The notes under the pieces: generated by a model | The model's database searches: none | Seen by the model: only the letters and a program-made list of their open reading frames with translations | What the model was told of the DNA's origin: nothing | Part shown: piece after piece, positions 9,034-33,002 of the stretch | Numbering within the stretch: the stretch's first letter is position 1 | How the letters are laid out: each line of letters opens with the position of its first letter | DNA from: Amoebophrya sp. AT5.2 | Taxonomy: Eukaryota > Sar > Dinophyceae > Syndiniales > Amoebophryaceae | Assembly: GCA_005223375.1 (NCBI GenBank) | Contig: RXOD01003967.1 | Span: forward strand, 1 to 34,119 | Length of the DNA: 34,119 nt | Direction of reading: 5' to 3' | Program-made: the position numbers and the translations under genes

Positions 9034-12000
9034 ATGCTTCAGCACACGGCGACTTTGATGGCTCGTCGCGCGAGCGACATCTATGGAGGCGCTTTTGACG
9101 AGGACGAGTGCGAGGACCTCCGCGGAACCAGCGCTGCGATTGCCCATTCCTCACCCGACCAGATCGCCACCCTCCGCGAGAATGCTTGGATGCGTGTCGT
9201 GCTTCGCGCTCTGTGGCCTAGGTTAATGCGGTACGTCGGCGAGATGGTTGCCGCCTATGTGTTCGAAGCGAGCGTGAAGCGCGTCGTCCGCGAGACCTTC
9301 CGGACACTGCCGATGCCGTGGCTTTCCCGCGACTTGACAGAATGGGTGAATGCTTCTTTTTTGCACGTGTGGCCCATGCTTCAGTCGGCCGTGCAGGACA
9401 TGATTGAGGCCCAAGTCACGCCGGAAATCGTCGCGGCGCTGCCGGCTGCTCTCGCGGGCAAGTGGGTGGTTAGCATCGAAGCGAACCTCGGAAGACGGCC
9501 CTTTGAGGTCGAAAGCGTTCGAACACTGCCGATGCGGATCGATCCGGAGACGGGGCGAAAAGATTTGGATGTGTGCTTCGATCTTTGCCTGGACCAGAGG
9601 CAGCAGGCGAGCGAGGGCGCCGTTGGAAAGCAAAACGATGCTCCTCTCCTGCGCATCGTAGTCGGACCCGCAAGTGCGTTTGTAAGGGATTTTGTCTTCA
9701 AGGGCCGGTTGTTTCTGACTCTGAATGATGTGAGTGCGGACCGACACGGGCCAGATTCACTTTTTTGCGCGGGCATTTCATGGTACTTCACGACTCCGCC
9801 GGAGATCGACTTTGAACTGGATGTCGGCGGCCTTGCGAGGCTGGCCCCAAACATACACACAGTGAAGCCGTCGATTGTAGCGGCGATACAGAGCGCGATC
9901 GCAAAAAGGATGCTGCTGCCAAAAAGAATGACCCACATTTTTTCCAGCGACACGAGAGCGTCAGCGGGGGCAGCAGCAGGGGACAAAAATCCCGCGGGAG
10001 ACGCCGAACAGAGCAAGATCAAGAACGAAAACAAGGACGAAGTCGCACGACAGAGGAGCGGCAACGCGACAGGCTTCCGCAATCTACCGGAGCGCGCCCG
10101 AGCGGAGATGACCTACCCAATGCCGAAGGGCAAGTTGACCATCCGCGTGCTGAGGGCGGAGAACCTCCGCGGTGACGACTGGAATCTGTGCACGCCCTTC
10201 ACCGGGGAGCGCACGTCGGATCCGTACGTGCGCGTTGCGATCGGCGCTGACGAATACTACACGCCGACCATCTACCGAAACTGCGACCCCGATTGGATGG
10301 CTTTTCCCGCCGGCGGCCGACAGCCGCGCCAGACCGGGCGACAAGCGACACAGGTGCGCGGTGGTGTGCCGGACAGCGCGCAGAAGTATCAACAGCACCA
10401 GCTGCATCAACATCCTGCGCCCAAGAAGAGAGCCCAAAAAAACGGCGAACCCACGAAGGGGCCGAAAGCCTTTCCGTTTCTCATCGAAAGTGTGGAACGG
10501 CAGACTTGTGAGATCAGTGTCTGGGACGAAGATGAGTTTTCTGGCGACGACCTCCTCGCCAAAACGAGCCTCCGCGTCCTTGACCTGGTTAAGGCTTGCT
10601 ATGCCAGCAAGAACTTGCAGCGGGGGCACCATAACCAAAACCAACACGACAGTGACCACATTCGCGGCGCAGGCGTGAAGGAGTACGTGAGTCAGGCCTG
10701 GTTTCCGCTCACCACCGTGAGCGCGGACGCAAAGACCGGGCGCGAGATCTTCTCGGAAGGAAAGTCGCGCCTGCTGCTCCGGTGCGAGTGGCAGTCGGTG
10801 GACCGCGCCACTGCGGAACGGGAGGAAGGGTACATGATGCGTTTTTTTCCGCCCGTGTTCTCGGGTCCGGCGGATCGCTTCGTGGTGCGAGTCGGGCTCG
10901 ATTGCGTCCAGAATGTGTACGACTTCACCGGGGTGAAAGTGCGCGTACGGAGAGAGAAAAGCGCTCGTGCTTCATCGGCAGTGGAACTGGCGAGTGCCGC
11001 GGCCAGACGGACCACCGTCAAGGCTAAAGAAGATCGAGAAGATGAGGATGGCAACACGACGAGGGTGTTTACGACGCCAGTGCACCAGGTTCTGCCCCCG
11101 ATCTCCAACCCGGGGCTGCTCGCGGAGGCCAAGAGAGACATCGCTACGCTGAAAAAGAAAGGCGTGCCGGCGGTGCTCATTTCAGAGATACTGGCCGTGG
11201 ATGTCGACCTAGTCGACGATCGCGTGTACGGAAAATGCCAGCTCGACGAGGTCTTCTGCTTCTCGCTGAGGGATCCGCGGGAAGAGACGCTTCGAGTGGA
11301 CGTGATCGGTGTGCGCGACGGAGCCGCTGGTGCGGATGGAGCACCGCCTGGGCCTGCTGCAGAAGAGTTAGTCGGCACTTTTCAGTACGCTTTGGGAAGG
11401 TTGTTGCGAGAGCGGTCCAACGTGCAAAAAATCGAATGCGAGGTGGCACCGCGGCAGGTGTTGCACGGCAGTCTCGAAATTGTCATGTTCACCGAGGAAG
11501 GAGGGGATGAGGAAGGGGACATGCCGCAGCAGGCGGACTGTGTTGCACGGCAAAAACGACCGGCCTTCAGGAAGTCGAGAACGGAGGAGTACTTCCTGAA
11601 AAATGGGGAAGCCGACGAAGAGGACACGGCAAGTGCATCGCACGACGAAGAGTTGCCAGTGTTGAAAAGTCGGGTGCATGGAAGCAGCGACCCTGACATG
11701 GGCCGAGTGGATGCTGGCGCGCCGGATCCAAAGCAGCGCTGGAAACAGGCTGTGAAGCTCGTTTCTACTGCACAGTCTGCCACGCAGAAGCTGGCCCCAG
11801 ACGAAAGCGGCTACCGAGAAGACTTCCTCGACAAGCTGATTCGCACGTTGTGGCCGTACGCTATTGAGTACGTGGTGAAGGAGATCGGCAATTTGGCGCC
11901 CAACTCCGCCCAGGCGGTCCGAACGGTGCTGGATGGATTACCCTCTCCCACGCCCTTCGGGCTGACTTGGCTCAACCTGCTGCTGCACAACCTCTGGTCG

Positions 12001-15000
12001 GTCGTCCAAGCAGTAATCGAGGACGTGATACAGACAGACGTGCTGCCCTCAATCCGTGCAAACCTGCCGGCAGCGCTGCGCGACCGCATGGGTTTGAAAC
12101 TTGTGTGTGATTTAGGCAACAACCCGCCGAAGCTGAAGTACATCCGTTCGCGCGTAAAGCGGAAGCACAGTGAAACGGAAACCAGCTGCGGCGCGGCCTC
12201 CGAGTCCGTCGAGCTGTTTCTGAACCTCGACGGCGACTTCAGCGAGGGAAGCCGTATCTCGCTGACCATCGGCGGCGTCAGCGTCGGCGTCGAGAATCTC
12301 AAAGTGCGTGGCTTGTTTGTGGTCTCACTCTGCGACCTGATTGACAGCCCGCCCTTCGTCCAGGGGATATCGGCCTACTTCGTGAACCCCCCGGAGTGCG
12401 AGTTCCGGTTTGCGGGGGGTTTGGATTTCCTCCATCAGGTAAATTTGTATCCGATCATCGAGTCGTCGATTTCTGGAGCGGTGGGAAGGCTTTGTGTCCT
12501 GCCGCAACGCATCGCGGTCCCACTGGTTGACACAGCCACGAGACCGGACGACGAAGAGGCGGATGAAGATGGTGCCGACGTTTCTCCCAGCAGTGCCTCC
12601 ACCATATCCGCGGGCTCGAGCAAAACAGCGTTCTCGACACCGACCACGGCGGCGTCGACAAAAGCAGGAGCCTCCGGTACGCCGTCGGGGACAACGATCA
12701 GTCCGTCCTCGTCGAGCATCGCGCGCAGTGCATTGAAGCCTTGCAAGGAACAAGGCGAAGTGCTGTCAAATGTCGGCTCGTCCGAAGGGGACCAGCACAA
12801 CTACAAGATGCCGCAAGAGCAGCGCCTGCGTTTCGCCGACCTCCTGGCCCCGATGCCGCAGGGTATCCTCGAGATCGAGGTTGTGTCCGCGTCGAATCTC
12901 CGTGGCGATGACTGGAACTTCCCGCGGTCGTTGTGGAGTGGCGTGCGCACGAGCGACCCCTACGTGCAGGTCGTGATCGGCGGTAGCGTCAAGCGGACGC
13001 GCACGCTGAACGCGAACAACGAACGCCCCGCGTGGCATACCGAAAACAAATTCACCTTCCTGATCGAGGACGCAGCCGTGCAGACTTTGAGTCTCCAAGT
13101 GTTCGACGACGACATGTTTTCTGGCGACGACAAAATCGGGGAGCGATCGATTCTGGTGAGAGATCTGCTCAGGCTCGCGGCGAGTGGGAAGGGCAATGGG
13201 AATGGAGATGACGAACACGTCGAAAGGAGTGCGAATAACACGAAGCAAAGTATCACTGGTAGCGGGTGCAGCAGAATTTTCGAGGGGGGAGAAGTTGTGC
13301 ATCTGGAACCGGGGCTCCTCTCGCAATCGACGGAAACCGGCTCGCGTTTGGATTTATGCCGGCCGTTCGAACATAGCAAGCGTCTCTTGGACGGCTATTT
13401 GCAACACGAAGGTGCTGGTGCACTGGCGTCCTCTGCAAGTCATCGGGACCAGCACATCAGCCCTGCCTCGTGCGTCGGGCTCTTTCGAGACACGGCTCCT
13501 GGCCAGGATGAAGCCATTTCTGTGCTCGCGCTGCACTGCCCGGGGGGCGCGTTTTTCCGACCCCACCCGAAGCTCTTCGTGCCTATAGCAGCGCAAAAAG
13601 CAGCGACCACGTATCGGGAAAAAGACGAGCCGTGTAGCTCTAGCGACAATGAGGAGCAAGGACAGGATGGCGATGACGCGGACTATTTCGAGGACGCAAG
13701 CGTGATTGAGAACGAGCCCCGGCTTCTGCTCACCCGACTAGTTTTTGGGCCGACCTCGAGCTATTCTGCAATCGGCTTACAAAAGGTCTGGCAGGAGTAC
13801 TACGATTCTGGATTCGCGTTGTTGTATGCCTGTTTGGAGCTCGTTCTCGGTTTTTTCTTCTTCTCCACTTGCGGCGGCCAGTGGAAGGCGGAAAACAAGG
13901 CGCTAGAGGTCCTCACCCGGAAAGATAAGTGGATGCGCCTCCTGCCTGTCGCGCATGACAACTCGCTCGGGGAAGGAGCTGGTGTAGGCACCGATGCGAA
14001 GAAGCAAGCTGCGGTAGCGCGCCAGGCCGTGAACAGGAAGTGCTCGGCTGTTTGCGACTTGGCGCTCACAACGATCTGCCCGGATGGAAAGGGCAACGAG
14101 GTACCTGAGGTGAAACTGATTGGCGACCGCATCCTGCACTTGATGCGGAAAAATGCGACAGGCCTGATGGATCGCTGGCGAGAGGCCAACGCAGAGAAAA
14201 CGCAGAAGGGCCGGCTAGGGAGTCGGGCTGGGCGCGGAAGGTGTAGGGCCTTTTGTGCGTTTTTGGCCTCCCGACTGAACACACCAGGCACAAGGACAAT
14301 TGGCCGGGCCATCTCGTACGTCGCCTCCATTTTTTCACTTTCCTCTGTTCGCGAATTCGCAGAGAAGGCTGCGGCTTTGCTTTATCGCGGCGTCCGGTTT
14401 GGGATGCTGCTCATCGCAGCTGCCGTTTTCACCCAGGCCTACCTCGCGTACCCAATGTTGACAATTTCGGCGGCGGTCGGCTGCGTGGCTGTCTACATGG
14501 TTCTCTTCGATGTGGGCGAATTCTTTGACGCCCTGCTCGACGCAATGCGCTGCCGAAGCGATCCCGACATGCGAATCGATAGCCTGCACGACGCGAGGAT
14601 TCGGCTACGCGTTCGGTTCCGCCCGGTTACGAGCGAAGTGGCCTGCATTACAAAGCTTGATGGCAAGGGGAGAAAACTTGCGCTTGCGGCACCCGTGAGT
14701 GAAGTGATCGAGCAGCAGCGGAAGCTCGCTGGCGAGCGACATCAGCGAGTGCGGTACTTCTTGCAACAACCGGAGCCTCTGGACGATGAGCGACGCGAGG
14801 AATTGGCGGGTCCTCCCAAGCAGGAGAGGTTAGCAGGAGAGGAAGCCGCGGCAATCCTTCGCGTCTCGATAGAGGCTGTAAAGAGCTTACTGGGTGTGAA
14901 CCGGTGCAAAGTACGCGTCCGCTTGATCAACCACGCCGAAGACGGATCCAGCAGTAGCAGTTCTTCGTCTTGTGATGAGCAAGAAGGGACAAAAATGGCA

Positions 15001-15894
15001 AACAAGAACCACACCGAACAACTGAAAGAGAACGAGAACGTTCAAGAAACCCAAATCGTGCCAACGCGGTCGCCACTCTTGGACAACGATTTTCTGAATG
15101 CGACGCTGACTCATGACACCCCGTCCGGCGATTCTCAGGCGCTGGCGGATCGCGAAAAACGACTCCGGCATAAAATTCAACTACTGACTGTCGTCGCAGA
15201 AGCGAGGTCAGGAAAACGTGCGTCAAGAGCATCGGCGAGGGGAGCATCTACGGTAGGAGTTGACGAAAGCGCCAGACTCGATCTCGCAACCGTTGCTGAT
15301 GCATGTAACGTCTCCGAGGACGTCGCACGCGTATACGCAAAGCAAGTTGTGCTTCCCCCCGGCGGCAGCAGGACGACGAGCACAGACAAATCAGAGCAAG
15401 ACGATGAAACAGCGATCGGTAATGCGGTTCTGAACGAGTGTTTTATGTTCAAACTGTGGGGGGACGGACAGCTCGCGAACGCAGCCGTGGAGATAGAAGT
15501 GCTCGCAATTTCGGAGAGCAAACCCAAAGACGGCAAAACGACGGGTAAAGATGCTGCCAAGGAGAAGGACAAAAAGGAGATTGAATCCCTGGTCGGGGTA
15601 TGGAGATATTCCGTCGCGGAATTACTGGAAGATGCGCGGGAGAAGAAACTAAAAAATGGAAGTGCTTGTTCCACCGCTTGCGTTTTTCCCGTGGCTTTCA
15701 CAGCACGGTCCTCTTTGATTTCTCGTCTACCGCTGGGTGCGGCGCTGGGAGGCGTAGCCTCTTCGGAAGAGGAAACAGGGGCCGCACCAGATGAAGTTTT
15801 GAACGAGGCAGCCGCGCTCAGGCGCGAAGTTCTGTCAGGTGACAAAATCAAGCCGAGGCTCACAGCCCACTTTCAGCTGGCCGTTTCGGCGTAG
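9034..15894 (+). CDS. Tandem SMP-C2 membrane tether (extended-synaptotagmin-like)
   Basis: A 2286-residue single-exon protein resembling extended synaptotagmins, which move lipid between membranes at contact sites. Order: SMP 1 (about 48-303, with the ALWP...WVNASFLHVWP core); C2 domain (about 363-588) with acidic calcium-type residues in RGDDW, SDPYV and WDEDEFSGDD; a divergent C2-like stretch (about 610-835); SMP 2 (about 927-1166, TWLNLLLHNLW); a second C2 (about 1274-1385) with RGDDW, SDPYV and FDDDMFSGDD; membrane segments at about 1590-1612 and 1789-1830; then another divergent C2-like region (about 1950-2260). The N-terminal and C-terminal halves are thus parallel modules. Family members usually carry one SMP domain and an N-terminal membrane hairpin; here there are two, and the hydrophobic segments lie late. 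ATG at 9034 is the first in a long open frame. Location at the ER or plasma-membrane contacts is inferred. Confidence 0.88.
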   Translation: MLQHTATLMARRASDIYGGAFDEDECEDLRGTSAAIAHSSPDQIATLRENAWMRVVLRALWPRLMRYVGEMVAAYVFEASVKRVVRETFRTLPMPWLSRDLTEWVNASFLHVWPMLQSAVQDMIEAQVTPEIVAALPAALAGKWVVSIEANLGRRPFEVESVRTLPMRIDPETGRKDLDVCFDLCLDQRQQASEGAVGKQNDAPLLRIVVGPASAFVRDFVFKGRLFLTLNDVSADRHGPDSLFCAGISWYFTTPPEIDFELDVGGLARLAPNIHTVKPSIVAAIQSAIAKRMLLPKRMTHIFSSDTRASAGAAAGDKNPAGDAEQSKIKNENKDEVARQRSGNATGFRNLPERARAEMTYPMPKGKLTIRVLRAENLRGDDWNLCTPFTGERTSDPYVRVAIGADEYYTPTIYRNCDPDWMAFPAGGRQPRQTGRQATQVRGGVPDSAQKYQQHQLHQHPAPKKRAQKNGEPTKGPKAFPFLIESVERQTCEISVWDEDEFSGDDLLAKTSLRVLDLVKACYASKNLQRGHHNQNQHDSDHIRGAGVKEYVSQAWFPLTTVSADAKTGREIFSEGKSRLLLRCEWQSVDRATAEREEGYMMRFFPPVFSGPADRFVVRVGLDCVQNVYDFTGVKVRVRREKSARASSAVELASAAARRTTVKAKEDREDEDGNTTRVFTTPVHQVLPPISNPGLLAEAKRDIATLKKKGVPAVLISEILAVDVDLVDDRVYGKCQLDEVFCFSLRDPREETLRVDVIGVRDGAAGADGAPPGPAAEELVGTFQYALGRLLRERSNVQKIECEVAPRQVLHGSLEIVMFTEEGGDEEGDMPQQADCVARQKRPAFRKSRTEEYFLKNGEADEEDTASASHDEELPVLKSRVHGSSDPDMGRVDAGAPDPKQRWKQAVKLVSTAQSATQKLAPDESGYREDFLDKLIRTLWPYAIEYVVKEIGNLAPNSAQAVRTVLDGLPSPTPFGLTWLNLLLHNLWSVVQAVIEDVIQTDVLPSIRANLPAALRDRMGLKLVCDLGNNPPKLKYIRSRVKRKHSETETSCGAASESVELFLNLDGDFSEGSRISLTIGGVSVGVENLKVRGLFVVSLCDLIDSPPFVQGISAYFVNPPECEFRFAGGLDFLHQVNLYPIIESSISGAVGRLCVLPQRIAVPLVDTATRPDDEEADEDGADVSPSSASTISAGSSKTAFSTPTTAASTKAGASGTPSGTTISPSSSSIARSALKPCKEQGEVLSNVGSSEGDQHNYKMPQEQRLRFADLLAPMPQGILEIEVVSASNLRGDDWNFPRSLWSGVRTSDPYVQVVIGGSVKRTRTLNANNERPAWHTENKFTFLIEDAAVQTLSLQVFDDDMFSGDDKIGERSILVRDLLRLAASGKGNGNGDDEHVERSANNTKQSITGSGCSRIFEGGEVVHLEPGLLSQSTETGSRLDLCRPFEHSKRLLDGYLQHEGAGALASSASHRDQHISPASCVGLFRDTAPGQDEAISVLALHCPGGAFFRPHPKLFVPIAAQKAATTYREKDEPCSSSDNEEQGQDGDDADYFEDASVIENEPRLLLTRLVFGPTSSYSAIGLQKVWQEYYDSGFALLYACLELVLGFFFFSTCGGQWKAENKALEVLTRKDKWMRLLPVAHDNSLGEGAGVGTDAKKQAAVARQAVNRKCSAVCDLALTTICPDGKGNEVPEVKLIGDRILHLMRKNATGLMDRWREANAEKTQKGRLGSRAGRGRCRAFCAFLASRLNTPGTRTIGRAISYVASIFSLSSVREFAEKAAALLYRGVRFGMLLIAAAVFTQAYLAYPMLTISAAVGCVAVYMVLFDVGEFFDALLDAMRCRSDPDMRIDSLHDARIRLRVRFRPVTSEVACITKLDGKGRKLALAAPVSEVIEQQRKLAGERHQRVRYFLQQPEPLDDERREELAGPPKQERLAGEEAAAILRVSIEAVKSLLGVNRCKVRVRLINHAEDGSSSSSSSSCDEQEGTKMANKNHTEQLKENENVQETQIVPTRSPLLDNDFLNATLTHDTPSGDSQALADREKRLRHKIQLLTVVAEARSGKRASRASARGASTVGVDESARLDLATVADACNVSEDVARVYAKQVVLPPGGSRTTSTDKSEQDDETAIGNAVLNECFMFKLWGDGQLANAAVEIEVLAISESKPKDGKTTGKDAAKEKDKKEIESLVGVWRYSVAELLEDAREKKLKNGSACSTACVFPVAFTARSSLISRLPLGAALGGVASSEEETGAAPDEVLNEAAALRREVLSGDKIKPRLTAHFQLAVSA

Positions 15895-23230: not shown

Positions 23231-26200
23231 ATGTCGATGGGGATTTCCTCTTGGAGCTGCGAGGTACTGGCCGCGTGGCTGCGGTCGAACGGAAAGTGGC
23301 AGGAGGCGGAACTCCTGCGGGGGGCAGACATCAACGGAAGCCATTTGGTGAGCATGCCTGACGAGGAGTTTGCGGAGATGGTAAAGGAAGTCTTTCCGCC
23401 TGAGTTGCGCACGTTCGGGAAGCGGAAAGACCTCAAGAACCTGATAGCGAAGGCGCGCGCAGAAGAACAGGGAGCAGAGGTTCGCGGAAGCGGCGCGACG
23501 GCGGCGATGCATGCCAATGCAAATGCTAGTAATCCGAATGCAGCTCCTGCGGCCAGCGTCCTGCATACGCCCGCGATGGTCATGCCCCTCGGCGCTTTGC
23601 AGCCGCAGCACTTTCAGGCACAACAAGCTGAAGTCCGTCTGCAGCAGCATCTTCTATGTAGTTCTTTTCTTTTGGCGTTTCTTTGCTCTTTGTCTTTCGG
23701 TAGAAACAAAAGAATCCGTGACTGAAGACAGTTGATCTGGTTTGATTGATGCCAGTGCTGGTGATGGCAGTTCGATCCTGTCGTAGTTGCAGACGTGAAC
23801 GCTCTAGCCCCTCCGCTCCTGACTGATCATACCCTAGTTCGCTTACGTTGATTTCTGGTTCTGGGCTAGATTGGTTTTTGCGCTCTGAGGACGACCAACG
23901 ACCACGACGAAATAATCCGAAAACTTTTATTTGTTCTGCGCAGATGCTACGCCAGCACCGGCGCCGGTCGTGCCAGCCCCAGCGAGGAGCTCACAAATCG
24001 ATGCTCCGACGGTGGCAAACGCTCCGTGCGAGCCGTCTTTCGAGGACAGCCTTCCGCCACGAGTTCCTGTTTCCGAGAAGCCACTCCGTAAGCAGCAGAA
24101 AGGGGTACTGGAACTTGCCGCGGCGGTCAACGAGGATCGGGAGAAGACGTCAATAATGTCGGGCGACACGATGATGTCGACGCCGGTGGCGGCTGGTGGA
24201 AACAGTTCTCGGCCGCGCGGTCCTCCGCTGCGGGCTGATACAGCAGCAGCGAGTACGGCCTACTTGTACGAGAGTCCGTTCGCGCCAAACCTGCGCAACA
24301 CGGTGAAGCCGCCGGATTTATCGGTAGGAGAGCCGACGCAGTCTTCCTCTTCGTCTTCTTCATCTTCGTCACGTGCTGTGGGAGCGGTACGAACGAAGGC
24401 CAGCAAAGCGGGCACAAACAACACGACGAAGCAAGCATGTGCAGGGACCTCGAGCACCGCGGAAGCGCAGAAGTCGACGAAAGCACATCGGCAGGACGCA
24501 GATGTTGAGAAGGCTTTGGAGCTTGAGCGAGAGGACGAGGACAAGAAAGTGCTCAATCTCTGCGGGCTTGTGACCGGTACTACAGCGGAGCAGGCTCGGG
24601 AGGCCTTGCGCCGGATGGGGGGAGTCATCGACGACGCAGCGTTGCTGCTGCTGGATGCGCAGCCACAAAGGCAGACAAGCTCAGCATCTGCCTCGGCGAC
24701 GGTTGTGGGAATCATGGAGAAGAAGCTCAAGAAAGCGAAGAAAAGTAAGAAAGAAGTAGATTCAGATTGCGGATACGAACAAGATGTGCCGTCAGCAGCG
24801 CCGACGCCGGGCCGAACGACGAAGACCAAGAGTAAGAAGAATGCGTCCTCAGAAGCTTCCTCTTCTTCTTCGAAGGCTGTCGAGCTGCGTTTGAATTCTC
24901 CGGATACGAGCACGGGCCTCGAAGGAGATGCACTCTCGACGCGGGCCGCGAACCTTTACTCGCAAGCCGCCACCCAGATTGATGGTCAGACAACAAGCAT
25001 CGCGAGGCAAGTAGCAGCGCGTAACGCGGCGCAGGCAGCGGAGGCCGCGGCCGCCCTTCAGGCTCAGCAACAAGCCTCCCAAAATAATCAAAACTCGCTT
25101 CAATTGCCCATCGGCTCTCCGACACCGAGCGCAAGTCAGATGCGCGACCAGTCGGCTGGGGTTACGCAGCCAGGCGCCTCGCTTAACCCGCAACATGCGT
25201 TCTACCACCCCGCAGGAACGGCACCGGTGCAAATTCAAAGTCATTATCAACATCATTTCGGGAAAGAGCAGTATCAACACCAGCATCAGGAGCTGCAGCT
25301 GGCTTACCCCTATCACGAAGCACCGCACGCGCACAAGAGCCCGTCTTTCGACCCTGCGGCTGCTGCTGCGTCTTCGTATCCTAGCACGTATCATGAGCGG
25401 CTGCTGCTGCGTCTGAGCACTACTTACGAGCACCAGCAGGCCTTCTATGAGCAGCAGATGCAACATATGCGAGCCACCCAGAGTAACTGGATATGCGAGC
25501 AATCCAGAGTTCTACCTCCAAGCGATCCATATGAACGACTTGCAGCGGAATATGCAGGAGCAGGAAGTTACAGCCAGCACTTCTACGCTGGCCACAATCC
25601 AGATGCGGTGGCTGGGCAGTGCTATCTGCCTTCGTCTGCTCATGAACAAGTGCAAGAGGTGATGCACGACGCGTACTATGGGAGCGGTCAGGAACAGCAA
25701 CACGCTCTAGCAACTAGTACTGCGACCCCGGCGGGAGTGGGAGAGGGCGCCTCTACGGAGCTCCCTGTCTCCAGCTCTGGTGCTGAAGAAGACAAAGACG
25801 GCGCGACAGCGGCGTGGCCTCCGACATCCTCGTCGGTCCATGACAGCTTCAGCAAGCTGCAGAAGCACGACGTGGAACCCGCTGCAGCAGTTGAAGAATT
25901 GCCAGCGCCAGAAAACGGTGGACATGAAAAGCCGGAACCGGAGGCATCCTCTTGTTTTACTTCGTCGTCTGTACCTGCTGTAGCTCTGAATGGTAATAGA
26001 ACTAGTTCTCCTGCACCTGCGCCTGACCCTGAGCCAGCGAAAACTACTGTCTCTAGTGCTGCTGCAGATCTTCGTTCGGAACCGAGCGCCAGGCCTACCG
26101 CTACTGCCATGAAGTCGACGGCAGCCGCTGCTTCGAAAGCGACGCTGGCGCAAAGAAAAAAATCAAAGGAAATCCTCCGCGAGCAGGAAACAGCTGCCGG

Positions 26201-29200
26201 GACGAGAGCAGCTGGTGACAGCAACCCCAACCGTCAACGAGGCGAAGGCACAGAAACAGACGCACCCGGCTCTAGCACGACAGGAACAGGTCCGGGGCCA
26301 AGGCCAACTACTTCTTCGACTTCACTGACCACGACTGCGTCTTCGAAGGAATCCAGCCCGGAGGTCGCAGAGGACCAGACCGCTCCGGTCGGTTTCAAGG
26401 AGCACAAGCGCCAGGTACAGCGACAAGAGGCACGGGCGGAAGCAGCAAAAGCAGCTTTGGCAGAGGAAGCAGCGGAGGAGGGCGAGTGGCCCTGCTTCGA
26501 AGACCGCAAAACGGCGGTAGACAAGATCCGCAGCTCCCAAAGCTATGTTCGCTACGTTGCTGCAGTGCCACGAAGGGAGCGCTTGCCGCGAGGGTCTCCG
26601 TCGACTCCATCTTGCCACCGCAAACACCGGAAGCGGTTTAACGAGGACCGAGAAAACTTCTGGGAGTTTCTTACGGAACACTACCCACCTGTTAAAATTG
26701 ACGAGTATGTCGGCGGCATTGGCTTGCGAGATGCAGAAGACCCTCCTTGCGAAAGTCAAGCTGCAGCTGGAAAACTACGCGGACGTGAAGAATTGCGGGT
26801 GTTGCATCTTGGCGCTAGCCCGGCAGTGCGCTTTGGCGCAGCTACAAGTTCGTCTTCGTCCGCTGCCAGTGCATCTTCCCAGGCTGTTCTTCCGCTCGGC
26901 GCACTCGATTTGGAGACCGAGAGGGCAGAAATTTTCGAAGTCGTTCGTCGCGCAAATGGCAAGCTCACTAGCATCAATCGCCCGGGCGCCGGCACTGGAG
27001 AAGCGTCTTTAGCATTGTCGTCACCTTGTTCGCTGGACCCGTTCCAGCTTGCGTTCGCCCCCTTGACCAAGGCAAACCTAACGCGTTGCATCGAAGGCGA
27101 CAGTGTAGTTGCCGATATCGTCATCATCTGCTGTCACGCAACGACGGACGGGGCGCTGCTTCTTGAAGGGAACGACGGCTACCTCCACCCAGCAGTTCCC
27201 TTTGCTGTGGAAAGGGAGCTCGCGCGGCTTCCACCGTCCGCTCGCCGAGCCGAAGCGCAGGGGCAGGGTCACCAGCCACGGCTTTTGATACTGCCAGTGT
27301 GCCACGCGCGAATGCTAGGCGAGTACTTTCTCACTTTCTTCGATTTCGTCCTCACCGTGGAGACGGGAAGCGTGACCGACACCGCCGCGCAGCTTTTTAC
27401 AAGCAGGTTTCTCATGGAGGTGCTGGCTTGCGGCTCAGTGGCGGGAGCGGGCGGCGACAAGAAGAAGTCTGGATCTGCAGGAGTCACTGGAGCGCACGAC
27501 CCTCCGACGGTGTTGCGAGCCTTCGTGAAGGCAGTCGCGTACCTGGAGCTGACGGGGCTTGAAAAGGAAGCAAGTAAAATGGTACTCCTGAGCCGCGATG
27601 GTGCGGATCCAGAAAACGGACCGATTCACGTCATCGACAACCGGAAGATGCGAGCGCTGTCTTCGACGACCTCCGCATCTTCAATGGAAAACTCGCTGAT
27701 GAAGATCTCCGCGGGGCCGTCGCTGGCTGCTTGCTACGGAATGCTGGATGCAGTTCTAATCGGCAGGGCATCCATGGCACCACTACCCGAGTTGGACTCA
27801 GCTGCTCGAGACGCAGCTTCATCTGCCCCTTTCGACATTTTTGAGGGGGTGACTGTAGTGGTCCTTGATCCTGTTGGAGAGGGCAGGGACGAGGACGACA
27901 CCTCAAGAAGAACCTCCGCTCTCGCAGCTACTGGCGCGCGACGTAAGGCAGACCTCGAGTGGGCGGACCAGCAGAGCGCCCACGACGATACGACCAAGCG
28001 GACAGGCGCTCACGACGCCGCGGACAGGCGCGTCGCCGACGAACAAAAGCTGCTGCAAGTGCATTTGTGCGCGACCGCGTTTTCCTCGGAACGGCACGAG
28101 GTCCTCGCCTGGAGGATCGCGCGGACGCTGTTCGTGGACGACATGCGCGGGGTGCATCTCGTGGGGCACTCGAATCTGTACGGGCGAAAGAGCGTGATGC
28201 GGCTGCTGGCAACGAGGCTGAACGGACAGCGGTTACCGTCGGGACAAATCGCAATGGTGAGTTTTGTGCGGTTCGACAACAACTCCTGCGAGGAAGAAGA
28301 GCGGGGCCGAGAGCTTCAACCGCAAGCCGCAGCCACTGCTGCAGCCTCCGGGGGAGATAGCGACGCTGATAAGCAGAAAACGAAGCAGATGAAAAGACCT
28401 GTAGAGGCTGGCACGAAATTGGTTTCCGGTTTCGACCTGGGCGCGTGCAAGTCGTGGAACGATGCGGCGGCAGGGATTCTGAAGCACCTTCGGAAGGCGG
28501 CTCGGGAGGTCGAGCGGAAGCTCAACGAGCAGGAGCATTTTCGATCAACGTCCCCTTTCATCCGTCCGATACTACTTTGTATGATCGAGAATCCAGACAA
28601 GATGATGTCGTGCGCGGCCGCGCCTGACGCCCTGCAACAGATTTTCCGGGAGCAAACCGAGACCAACTTTCATGTCGACACGGATGTGTTCGTGAAGTTT
28701 GTCTTCCTGCCAAGCTGTGCAACCGTCTGCAACCGCCTACCCATGTTCACACGGGTCGAGTTTTCGAGCGCCGCCTCGCTTGGGAGCTCGGGCGGAAACT
28801 ACAGAAACTGCACCTCCACTACAAAGACCAATAACCCGTCACCACAAGAAGAACCTCCTGCACTTTCCCAGGACCCGCTGCACCTCTTGCGAAGTTGCGG
28901 GGCGAGTTTCTCGCGGGAGCCGTTGTTGACGACGCAGGCGGGTGTGCGGCTCCTGAAGCGATTGCTCGGAAGGTCGAGCGCGACACCGCAGGCGCCGCCG
29001 TCCGCTCGGCTGCACGAGATACTATCCCTTCAAGCAGGCGACGCGACTGCGATTTGGATGCTGGAGCAGTTGGGTAAGAAGAGTGAGGCCGGTGTCCTCG
29101 GTCGCGGCTCGCGCGTACCGTACTGCTCGTTTCCGAGCGACGAGGATGCGGACGAAGGTAAAGCAGTGGATTCCTCGTGTTCTGGCGTTAGCTCCACCGC

Positions 29201-32200
29201 CTGTCCGTCTACACTGGCATCAGTTTCCATCGAGGACAGCATCGCGTATCAGCCGTGTCGCGAGTACAACAGGGAGGACGACGTGGATTTTGAGGTTTTG
29301 CAGACAGCAACGCACGCGGCGCTGCTACACGCGGTAGCGAAGAGTGGGGCCCAGGGTCAGAAGTTCGCGTCGCCCTCTGCGCTGCCGTATGCTGCAGATC
29401 CTCTTGCGGCGTTGGTGCTTTTGTGCGGTCACATTCCAATGGTGGTGGTTCGCGTGGGCCGGGCGCTCGCGGCGCGGAGCCGAAGATCCTCCGGCGAGAG
29501 CGAGGGAGCCGTGGATGAGTTTTTGCAAGACGTGCTTGCGGATCCGGTTTCGTTGATTTACCACGACGGCTTACCGAGCTTTTCGAAACAGTACGAACGC
29601 TTTGAAATGCTGCCGGTGTTTGACTACACCGCCGGCGCGGCTGGTTTTCCTACCCTGCATCGAGCCGCACACCGACTCATCCTGTTCGCGATCGCGCGCT
29701 ACTTCCCGGGCGGGTGCAATTTTTCCGCGCTGAAGGATGTTCTTTTGGCAAAACTTCCGGCCGGCAAAGCTGCAAGCAACAAGCTGACGTTGCTGGAGGA
29801 AGCACGGCAATTGCAGAAGGACGGCACTGGGGGCGACAGAACTCTAGAGCCGTTCCTGTCAGAGTTGGTAAAAGGCGAGCTGTTGCACGTCGACCGTGAC
29901 GCAACTTTTCCAGAGTCTGTCTACAGCCTACCTTACAGCGTATTCGGGGCTCTCTGTGTCGAAGAGCGGTTTCAGCGGCCAGTGATTCACGAGCTGCACC
30001 TTCGAGCGCACGACGACGAAATCCGCGCACAGTTCCTCCTGTTTACGTTGCGGACGCTGCATGAAGCAGAACAAACCTACCTCGCACCAAGAGAAACTGG
30101 ATCAGGCTCTCCGGGGAAGACGAGTTCATCCGGGACTCCGGCCCCGCCAACGAAATTCTTTTCGACTAAAAATATCGAACGCGCCTTCGACATCGCGACG
30201 CCCCTGCAATCCATTATTTTGGTGCAGGCGGGGCGGACCGTGCTCCAATACGCGCTGCATCCTCGCGCATTGGAGAAGGTCGCGGAATACATGTTGCTAT
30301 TCGTAGACCGAGAACTAGAGCTTGACTACGAGTGCAACTTCAGTAGCGCTACGCGCGGAGGTGGAATCGGGGACGGGGAAGATGAGGACGAAGCGGATTC
30401 CGATAGCGATTCGGAAGAAAACAACCGCGAGTCTGTTGAGGCAAAGCAGCAGCGTGAGTTCGAAAGGTCCACGCTGGGCTGGGTTGCCGGGTTTTGCGAT
30501 TTTTTGCGATGCGACGACGGGGGCGAGCGTCGTCCTTCTACGCGAAGGCCAGGCGGTTCCGCAGCGCTACCGATGACGACAGGACGGCGCCGGCTTGCCG
30601 TGGACGATTCTACGGGCCAGCGTGAGCGAGTACCTTCTTCGGAGAAGGATGTGGAGCAGGAGCTGCGTGCGGGAAGTTCGAACTTGGCAACGGACTTTCG
30701 CTCCTCTGAGGGATGGGCTGGCCAACCGGTGCTACCGACCAACAACCCGCTGTCGGGATTCGAGTCGTCAGTGCTTCTCGAGATGGAACACTTTGGCGCA
30801 GAAACCTTCAATCGGCTAGAGGCGCTCTCAGCGGACGTCTTGCGGGAGTTGCAGCGACACCACTTTTCGTTGGAAATGCGCGGCGGCGAGCAGGGCGAGG
30901 AAGGTGCAGAGCCAAGTCCTGCATCAAGTGAAGAAAACCACAGCGACGCAGCCTCAACATCAGTGGGTAACCGGCGAGCGCCGCCCCAGACAGACAAGGG
31001 ACTCCTGGTGCAGAAAAAGAGCTCGGAATACGACACGCGAAAAACCACGTCGCGCTCTCTGTCGCCGCTCGAATCGCGTTTGGTTTCTGAGTGGGAGTCT
31101 CTGCAACAAAAGACACGCACCGAGAGCCCATGCAAGAAGAAAAAGAAAAAAAAAGTAAGCGTAAGTGACCCGTATCTTGGATTCGTACCTGTTGCCAGCG
31201 ACACGGTCCTACTGAAGAAGGTGTATCCGCTGCGCAACTGGAGCGCGATTTCCTCGGCGGAGTGTCAGGCGCAACTCTTGTTCTGGTGTGCGGCAGTCTA
31301 TCTCAACTCCGGATACGCGACTGCCGCGCGGCGGTTGCTGATGCGTGCGGGAGAAATCCTCGTCGTTGCTGGGCGACAGGAGAAGGGATCCGACGGGGCA
31401 GTCGCGATGGAGCATCTGCAGCTTGCGATTTGGTGCGCCTTTCTTTTGGCCGAGGCGTTTCTCGCTGAAAACGACCTAGAGAGTGCGGCGACAATCCTCG
31501 AAGGGTGGGCCTGGCCGGACCTGATTCTGCCTGGGCAGAGAAGTTTTGGACAGGAAGATCCTTTCCTCGCGTCGCTCCGCACACTCTGCACCTCTCGTCT
31601 CGTGGCGCTGTATTGCCGTCGCGGGCAATGGAAGGATGCACGACTGCTCCTGCCAGACTCTGCGAAGTTGTTTCACCTCCAGAGCAGGGGACACGCCGAA
31701 CAAACCCTGAAAGCAGAGATGCTTCAGCTGGAGTTCGACGAAGCGTTTCTCCAGCTCGTATTCTTGGATTGCAGTATGTCCGCCGGCAAGATCCTGGCTG
31801 TCCGCACGGATTGGCGAAGTCGCTGGCTCCGCAGCTTCGCGCGTCGCTCAGGAAACCACTTGCAGGAGAATCCAGCGCAGGCGCAGGCGCTAGTAGAGAA
31901 GCAAGCTGCAGGCGCAGTTGCAGGCTCTCCCTCGTCTCAAGCGCCAGAGTCTGAGCGTGAAGATGTCGATGCCGAAAACGAGCAGTTGCTGAATCTTTCC
32001 AGTGTGCGGTACTTGTGCTCGGACGAGTTCCTCGAAGCGGTGGACGAGCCTGCAAACGCGGCGGTAAGACAGTCGGGCGGACCGCTTTTCGAGGTCGTGT
32101 TCGGGTTGCGGCAAATCATAAGTTCGCGCGAAGCCATCGTGGGCCGGCAACACCCCGACACAGCAATTGCGCGGATGCATCTTGCGTCAGTTTTCGGTGA

Positions 32201-33002
32201 ACTTGCTGCGAACGCGCAAAAAGAGTGGACGCAGGCACAGCAATTCTGCGACGAGTTCCGAGCGCGGAAAACGAAAGAAGCCGTGTCTTCGCTACAGCAT
32301 GTGCATGTGGAGGAGAGGAGCGACAGTGCGGCTGCTGTCGACAAGGGGGCAGAGAATCCTGAGAACGCTGCGGAGGAAGCAGCGCGCACTGCCGCGAAGC
32401 AGGCGGGCTGCACTAACCCACCATCCGAACAAGAAGTCGACTCCTCGACGGCGTCTAGCTCATTGGCCTCGGAGGGGCACCCGAACGAGGGCCAGCAGCT
32501 GCAGGCCGGCGTCCACGCTTCATCCCAACACTTCGAGCCGCAGACAAGTCCGAACGGCGCTTCACAGAGCGAAGGCTCTTTGTGGGCGAAATCATTGATG
32601 CTGATGTGCGAGCGAAGTCGAGGCGCGGTAGAAGCGGTGAGCGACTACTGCAGCTACGTTCGACAGATACAGCGACATTACCAGCGGGCTGAGAAGATGT
32701 TGTTCCAAGACTCAATCAAAACGCTGAGCTCCAGTCTGCGCCCTGATCATCCGAAGACGCTAGCGTGTCGGCTCAATTACGCTGGCAGCCTATTGCGAGT
32801 GGGAGACGTGGATACGGCGATTGTCGAACTGCAGGACGCCTATCGGAAGGGAACTGCCTACAACCGCCTCAGGAGCGGGCATCGTGGGGTGGGAACACGT
32901 ACATCGTGGAGAGACCGCATCTTGGTCCAAATCAAGCAGCGGATCACACGGGAGACGATGAAGAAGAAGAACGCCGCTAGTGTGGCGCTCATCAGTGGGT
33001 GA
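23231..33002 (+). CDS. SAM-CHAT-STAND-TPR protein, NLR-like
   Basis: Exons 23231-23657 and 23944-33002 give 3161 residues. Order: SAM domain (about 7-75); UBA-like helices (about 343-384, TTAEQAREALRRMGG); long Ser/Gln/His-rich disorder with a 10-Ser run; SLBP-like segment (about 991-1061); CHAT protease domain (about 1090-1360) with catalytic-type His1207 in CCHATTDG and Cys1262 in LPVCHARM, plus the SVTDTAAQLF stretch; degenerate STAND/NB-ARC NTPase (about 1520-2080) with a P-loop-like GHSNLYGRKS, a Walker B-like ILLCMIENPD, a GLPL-like CGHIPM and a winged-helix-like part; a Lys7 nuclear-signal-like patch; TPR helices (about 2575-2760, 2860-2905, 3058-3118), with kinesin-light-chain-type HPDTA and HPKTL motifs. 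Such proteins act as ligand-triggered switches that fire a protease. Here the ligand and substrate are unknown. The ATG at 23231 is the nearest before the SAM fold; an extra 5' exon is possible. Confidence 0.85.
23658..23943 (+). other. Intron, GT-AG, phase 1, joining SAM exon to the giant exon
   Basis: The donor GTAGTT follows CTA T and the acceptor TCTGCGCAG precedes AT GCT, so T plus AT makes Tyr and the frame passes from LQQHLL into ATPAPAPVV. Without splicing the SAM exon ends at a stop (TGA, 23723-23725) after a hydrophobic non-conserved run. The 286-bp intron has a T-rich 3' end. Confidence 0.75.

Follow-up and report, generated by a model that had tools for sequence, protein, structure and literature searches.

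The stretch of DNA analysed here (the window, 34,119 nucleotides of Amoebophrya sp. AT5.2, contig RXOD01003967.1; contig C171 in a 50.7-Mb assembly) encodes on its forward strand a giant protein whose architecture hints at proteolysis under the control of an RNA hairpin. Two exons splice in frame into a predicted protein of 3161 amino acids, their joining being a prediction from sequence and frame. Exon 2 is closed only by its terminal stop in its own frame; the other two forward frames hold 72 and 79 stops. The SLBP-type (stem-loop binding protein), CHAT, and TPR regions all fall within this one 9-kb open frame. A preliminary description, made from the letters of the sequence, had already proposed a single chain, and this proposal is supported. 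The codons that it gave for a CHAT-type His (27135-27137) and Cys (27300-27302) are exact, and the spliced numbering makes them His1207 and Cys1262, separated by 55 residues as it had stated. The gene and its central features are:

23231..23657, + strand: exon 1, residues 1-142 and the first base of residue 143
23658..23943, + strand: predicted GT-AG intron of 286 bases, based on sequence and frame
23944..33002, + strand: exon 2, the remainder of residue 143 through residue 3161, plus the stop, a single open frame
26499..26690, + strand: SLBP-type RNA-binding domain, residues 995-1058 (PF15247, SLBPs in the PDB, shuffle test)
26784..27611, + strand: CHAT caspase-fold domain, about residues 1090-1365 (profile, alignment, alignment-assisted model)
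27135..27137, + strand: His1207, aligned with the CHAT catalytic His (hhalign, alignment)
27300..27302, + strand: Cys1262, aligned with the CHAT catalytic Cys (hhalign, alignment)

Of all family matches obtained for the protein, the strongest is that to the SLBP-type domain, which was absent from the domain list of the preliminary description. On the exon-2 protein, SLBP_RNA_bind (PF15247; E 6.6e-4, 20.1 bits) is the one Pfam family that falls below E 0.01; this family reaches 27.1 bits on the isolated segment (E 4.4e-6; cut-off 27), and in a six-frame scan of the whole genome this locus tops three matches with 27.7 bits, the only one above the cut-off of 27. Four distinct solved SLBP sequences in the PDB match the domain (E 0.0012-0.0097). 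Aligned with the SLBP 4l8r, which we take to be the human protein, it shows identities at 15 of 61 ungapped positions, compared with a mean of 3.5 and a maximum of 11 among 20000 shuffles. Thr1030 aligns with SLBP Thr171, the pair equivalent to Thr171-Pro172 being retained, and Arg1040 aligns with SLBP Arg181, the arginine with a base-reading role (PMC10388802). Elsewhere in the genome, contig C1423 (L002, 1501-1623) carries a second SLBP-like half-domain of 20.7 bits, below the cut-off, which reads TP...SKRFW; the Pfam match is limited to the second half, and the upstream half, read by eye, gave no Pfam match. This place may encode the ordinary SLBP of the organism.

The SLBP-type domain ends about 35 residues before the CHAT domain, on the same exon. 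Apart from Pfam, three lines of evidence bear out the CHAT protease-like domain of the preliminary description: a profile, an alignment, and an alignment-assisted structural model. With hhalign, the CHAT profile score lies above all of 5000 shuffles, and both His1207 and Cys1262 fall in invariant columns of an alignment with 27 CHATs. Two CHAT alignments were made: for A1, 13 records were taken from 60 listed, leaving out Staphylococcus and Agrobacterium records, and 11 were used (L033 and L034 were excluded); for A2, at least 557 relatives were collected by similarity to one cyanobacterial sequence, of which 80 loci were kept, 31 requested, and 27 used, leaving out L084 (stop codon), L130, L132, and L140.

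Regions with weaker matches lie at both ends of the protein:

23243-23458, + strand: SAM-like domain, about residues 5-76 (weak Pfam matches)
31167..31865, + strand: weak TPR region, residues 2551-2783 (TPR_14, E 0.014, and TPR_4, E 0.042, below cut-off)
32706..32852, + strand: TPR_12-type unit, about residues 3064-3112 (19.8 bits, E 9.3e-4 on the segment; curated cut-off 30.1)

The protein probably has a SAM domain in front, as previously proposed: residues 1-89 gave Pfam matches only to SAM_PNT, SAM_2, and SAM_1 (E 0.13-0.22, all below cut-offs), but the entire 164-residue exon-1 frame matched no SAM family at E ≤ 1. The TPRs announced for the C-terminal part were likewise recovered as weak matches, the best being TPR_12, but all of them remain below the curated cut-offs. 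The UBA-like stretch (residues 345-383; 24549..24665, + strand) yielded 0 Pfam families on its segment and is not supported. The SAM exon, joined to the rest through a predicted intron only and weak in its domain match, is what could favour an artefact, in which separate genes or a mis-assembly are read as one or the matches arise by chance. We consider this extremely unlikely: SLBP, CHAT, and TPR share one 9-kb open frame, and the CHAT and SLBP scores exceed all 5000 and all 20000 shuffles, respectively.

We favour, with a probability of roughly 0.4, a single-chain protein in which an SLBP-type hairpin-binding domain before the CHAT and TPR-like repeats behind it place proteolysis under RNA control. 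We infer hairpin RNA binding, proteolysis, and their coupling as follows. The SLBP-type domain would bind a hairpin RNA; its binding or release would shift the adjacent CHAT between closed and open states; the open CHAT would cleave a partner bound to the TPRs; and the SAM domain may cluster copies of the protein. A precedent for such gating is Craspase, in which, as described, binding of non-self RNA moves the catalytic dyad from ~7 to ~3 Å and switches the TPR-CHAT protease on (PMC9729208).

Several observations weigh against RNA-controlled proteolysis. On the RNA-binding side, the whole-protein SLBP score (20.1 bits) is below the cut-off of 27, the SLBP motif TPNK reads TPSC and is thus incomplete, and SLBP Tyr144 and His195 are replaced by Lys and Glu, and Lys146 by Arg, all three being positions that we take to contact RNA. 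These same substitutions would suit a CHAT protease whose SLBP-derived module has lost RNA binding and become a protein-docking piece, but the Arg that reads a base is kept, as is the TP pair, and we give this alternative little credence. On the protease side, the Gly on either side of the CHAT His, near-invariant in the alignment, is replaced here by Cys1206 and Ala1208, which could impair catalysis. Pfam's own CHAT model gives no match here. A single bacterial CHAT (L032) used as a query against the genome also found no match, an empty answer that is itself uninformative. In pairwise alignments of the segment with individual CHATs, between 0 and 163 of 200 shuffles reached the score, and for 12 of the 13 CHATs at least one did, L032 alone beating all 200; the CHAT is thus visible by profile only. 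The structural model was built on the CHAT sequence alignment and is not independent of the CHAT assignment, and a longer CHAT segment modelled from a single sequence gave a predicted local distance difference test (pLDDT) value of 35.5.

The altered surroundings of the CHAT His, together with the fact that the SLBP domain scores best in the protein, would also suit an atypical regulator of histone mRNA (or other mRNA); in such a protein, which would be SLBP-like, the CHAT and TPR regions would serve as an inactive scaffold. We regard this as somewhat unlikely. Both the CHAT His and Cys are retained, and the ordinary SLBP job may already be taken by the other SLBP-like place, on C1423. The search for histone hairpins also weighs against such a regulator. 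No histone hairpin at the Rfam score was found in the genome (best 15.5 versus 34, with 75 of 5146 candidates scored). Loose matches, defined as 16-base stretches agreeing with the hairpin consensus at no fewer than 13 positions and 5 of its 6 pairs, numbered three in seven histone loci, two upstream on the gene strand and one on the other strand, and none lay downstream of a histone exon on its strand. On these results, the target of the RNA-controlled protease that we favour may differ from the standard histone hairpin. Few histone genes were found in this genome, with seven exon matches on four contigs (C1060, C853, C48, and C383; L035-L041), and some of these seven loci look like divergent H3.

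The preliminary description had proposed instead an NLR-like immune or cell-death switch, in which a STAND ATPase controls the CHAT and the TPRs act as the sensor. Two stretches between the CHAT and the TPRs bear on this:

28164..28193, + strand: P-loop-like stretch GHSNLYGRKS, residues 1550-1559 (no standard Walker A; reached by 316 of 2144 shuffles)
29397..29480, + strand: GLPL-like stretch, residues 1961-1988 (reached by 3 of 2371 scored shuffles; hhalign P 0.0026)

A profile of 11 bacterial NB-ARC sequences (10 records, from 72 of which 50 were listed, plus P0008) gave only 2.5 bits over residues 1501-2190, with 19 of 2000 shuffles scoring higher. For the individual pieces, 3000 shuffles were made per piece and counts refer to scored shuffles. 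The Walker-B-like piece IENPD was reached by 1139 of 1801, so that neither it nor the P-loop-like piece is better than shuffles. The concatenation of three NB-ARC-like stretches was reached by 12 of 1848, a score lifted by the inclusion of the GLPL-like piece. That piece may represent a weak remnant of a domain of the NB-ARC type, but no more. A genome scan with Pfam NB-ARC found four weak places, none at this locus, and the NCBIfam and PADLOC profile scans of the protein record P0001 returned 0 families. Because the NB-ARC profile tests fail except for this weak piece, we do not call the protein STAND or NLR. An NLR-like switch could still draw on the presence of the CHAT and weak TPRs, on the GLPL-like piece and the concatenation, on bacterial CHAT genes that adjoin NB-ARC genes, and on fungi, which are described as having CHAT-bearing NLRs and a gasdermin-activating TPR-CHAT protease (PMC12881547). 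Because the region lacks both a significant STAND profile match and a standard P-loop, and because the NB-ARC and PADLOC scans came back empty for this locus, we judge it improbable; moreover, an SLBP-type domain adjoins the CHAT, which makes an RNA-controlled protease the likelier of the two.

Each part of the protein is already known. Craspase (type III-E CRISPR gRAMP/Cas7-11 with the TPR-CHAT protein Csx29) recognises RNA through a separate guide-RNA effector and has its TPR before the CHAT, whereas here the SLBP-type domain precedes the CHAT in the same chain and the TPR-like region follows it. SAVED domains bind cyclic oligonucleotides. In SAVED-CHAT (8tl0) the sensor is such a domain, whereas here an SLBP-type RNA-binding domain stands. 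With histone SLBPs (PF15247) the giant protein has in common the RNA-binding domain with its equivalents of Arg181 and Thr171-Pro172, differing in the TPNK motif; SLBPs are small and are not known to carry a protease or TPR region. In fungi, TPR-CHAT proteases and CHAT-bearing NLRs that act on gasdermins likewise combine a eukaryotic CHAT with TPRs, but the available part of their description mentions no RNA-binding domain (PMC12881547), and the STAND part of such NLRs could not be recovered in the giant protein. By analogy with the fungal TPR-CHAT gasdermin activator, a role in defence or death is possible. As far as checked, an SLBP-type domain joined to a CHAT has not been described, and a literature search found no publication combining 'stem-loop binding protein' and 'CHAT domain'. 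A more specific proposal, which we find doubtful, is that of a eukaryotic single-chain protease gated by a specific hairpin, carried by its own mRNAs or by an intruder, as a guide-free and independent counterpart of Craspase. The known RNA-triggered proteolysis is that of CRISPR Craspase, to which the giant protein would, if this is true, add a second, guide-free route; SLBP, known for histone mRNA, would then become linked to caspase-like proteolysis. In the dinoflagellate lineage, described as having given up bulk nucleosomal packing by histones (PMC6723414), such a protein would also prompt one to ask which new uses SLBP-type domains have been put to.

Searches with the CHAT region extended beyond this genome. 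By tblastn, it met two plasmid records (E 7 and 8, the second without a listed gene beneath) and no phage match; by sequence, nothing in the PDB matched at E ≤ 10. None of 106 pattern matches in viral contigs was confirmed, and a CHAT was not found in a Halorussus plasmid record. On the Acaryochloris plasmid pMB06 (L022, L050), three adjoining bacterial genes encode a CHAT protein, an NB-ARC-WD40 protein, and a CHAT-bearing protein annotated as TIR. Within the genome, residues 791-3023 of P0001 match only themselves at E ≤ 1, and the giant gene was thus found in a single copy. Separases carry their protease domain at the C-terminus. An identity of the giant protein with separase was rejected, since a PF03568 scan omits this locus and a separate separase gene lies on contig C2692 (L145-L147). 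Its Peptidase C50 match scores 55.7 bits, and its open frame spans 1984 residues. A second set of C50 pieces on that contig, within a frame of 442 residues, is perhaps a tandem copy.

As to the host, a genome search for a 21-base string that we take to be the dinoflagellate spliced leader yielded 18 exact copies and 33 with at most one mismatch, compared with 0 in a reversed-pattern control. These copies place the host in the dinoflagellate lineage and agree with the alveolate origin suggested in the preliminary description. The 18 exact strings lie on 17 contigs and represent genes for the leader RNA or else relics left by retroposed mRNAs. Amoebophrya is described as having compact genomes with unidirectional gene clusters (PMC7789003), and the compactness of this genome, like the shared strand of the neighbouring genes, would suit a syndinian. 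The same-strand neighbours of the giant gene resemble ordinary eukaryotic genes, namely those of a DEAD-box helicase, an SMP-C2 protein, and a Fringe-like glycosyltransferase. The SMP-C2 protein (window positions 9034-15894; 2286 residues) has three C2 stretches and SMP-type lipid-binding matches in two places, and it is tricalbin-like but with two SMP-like units.
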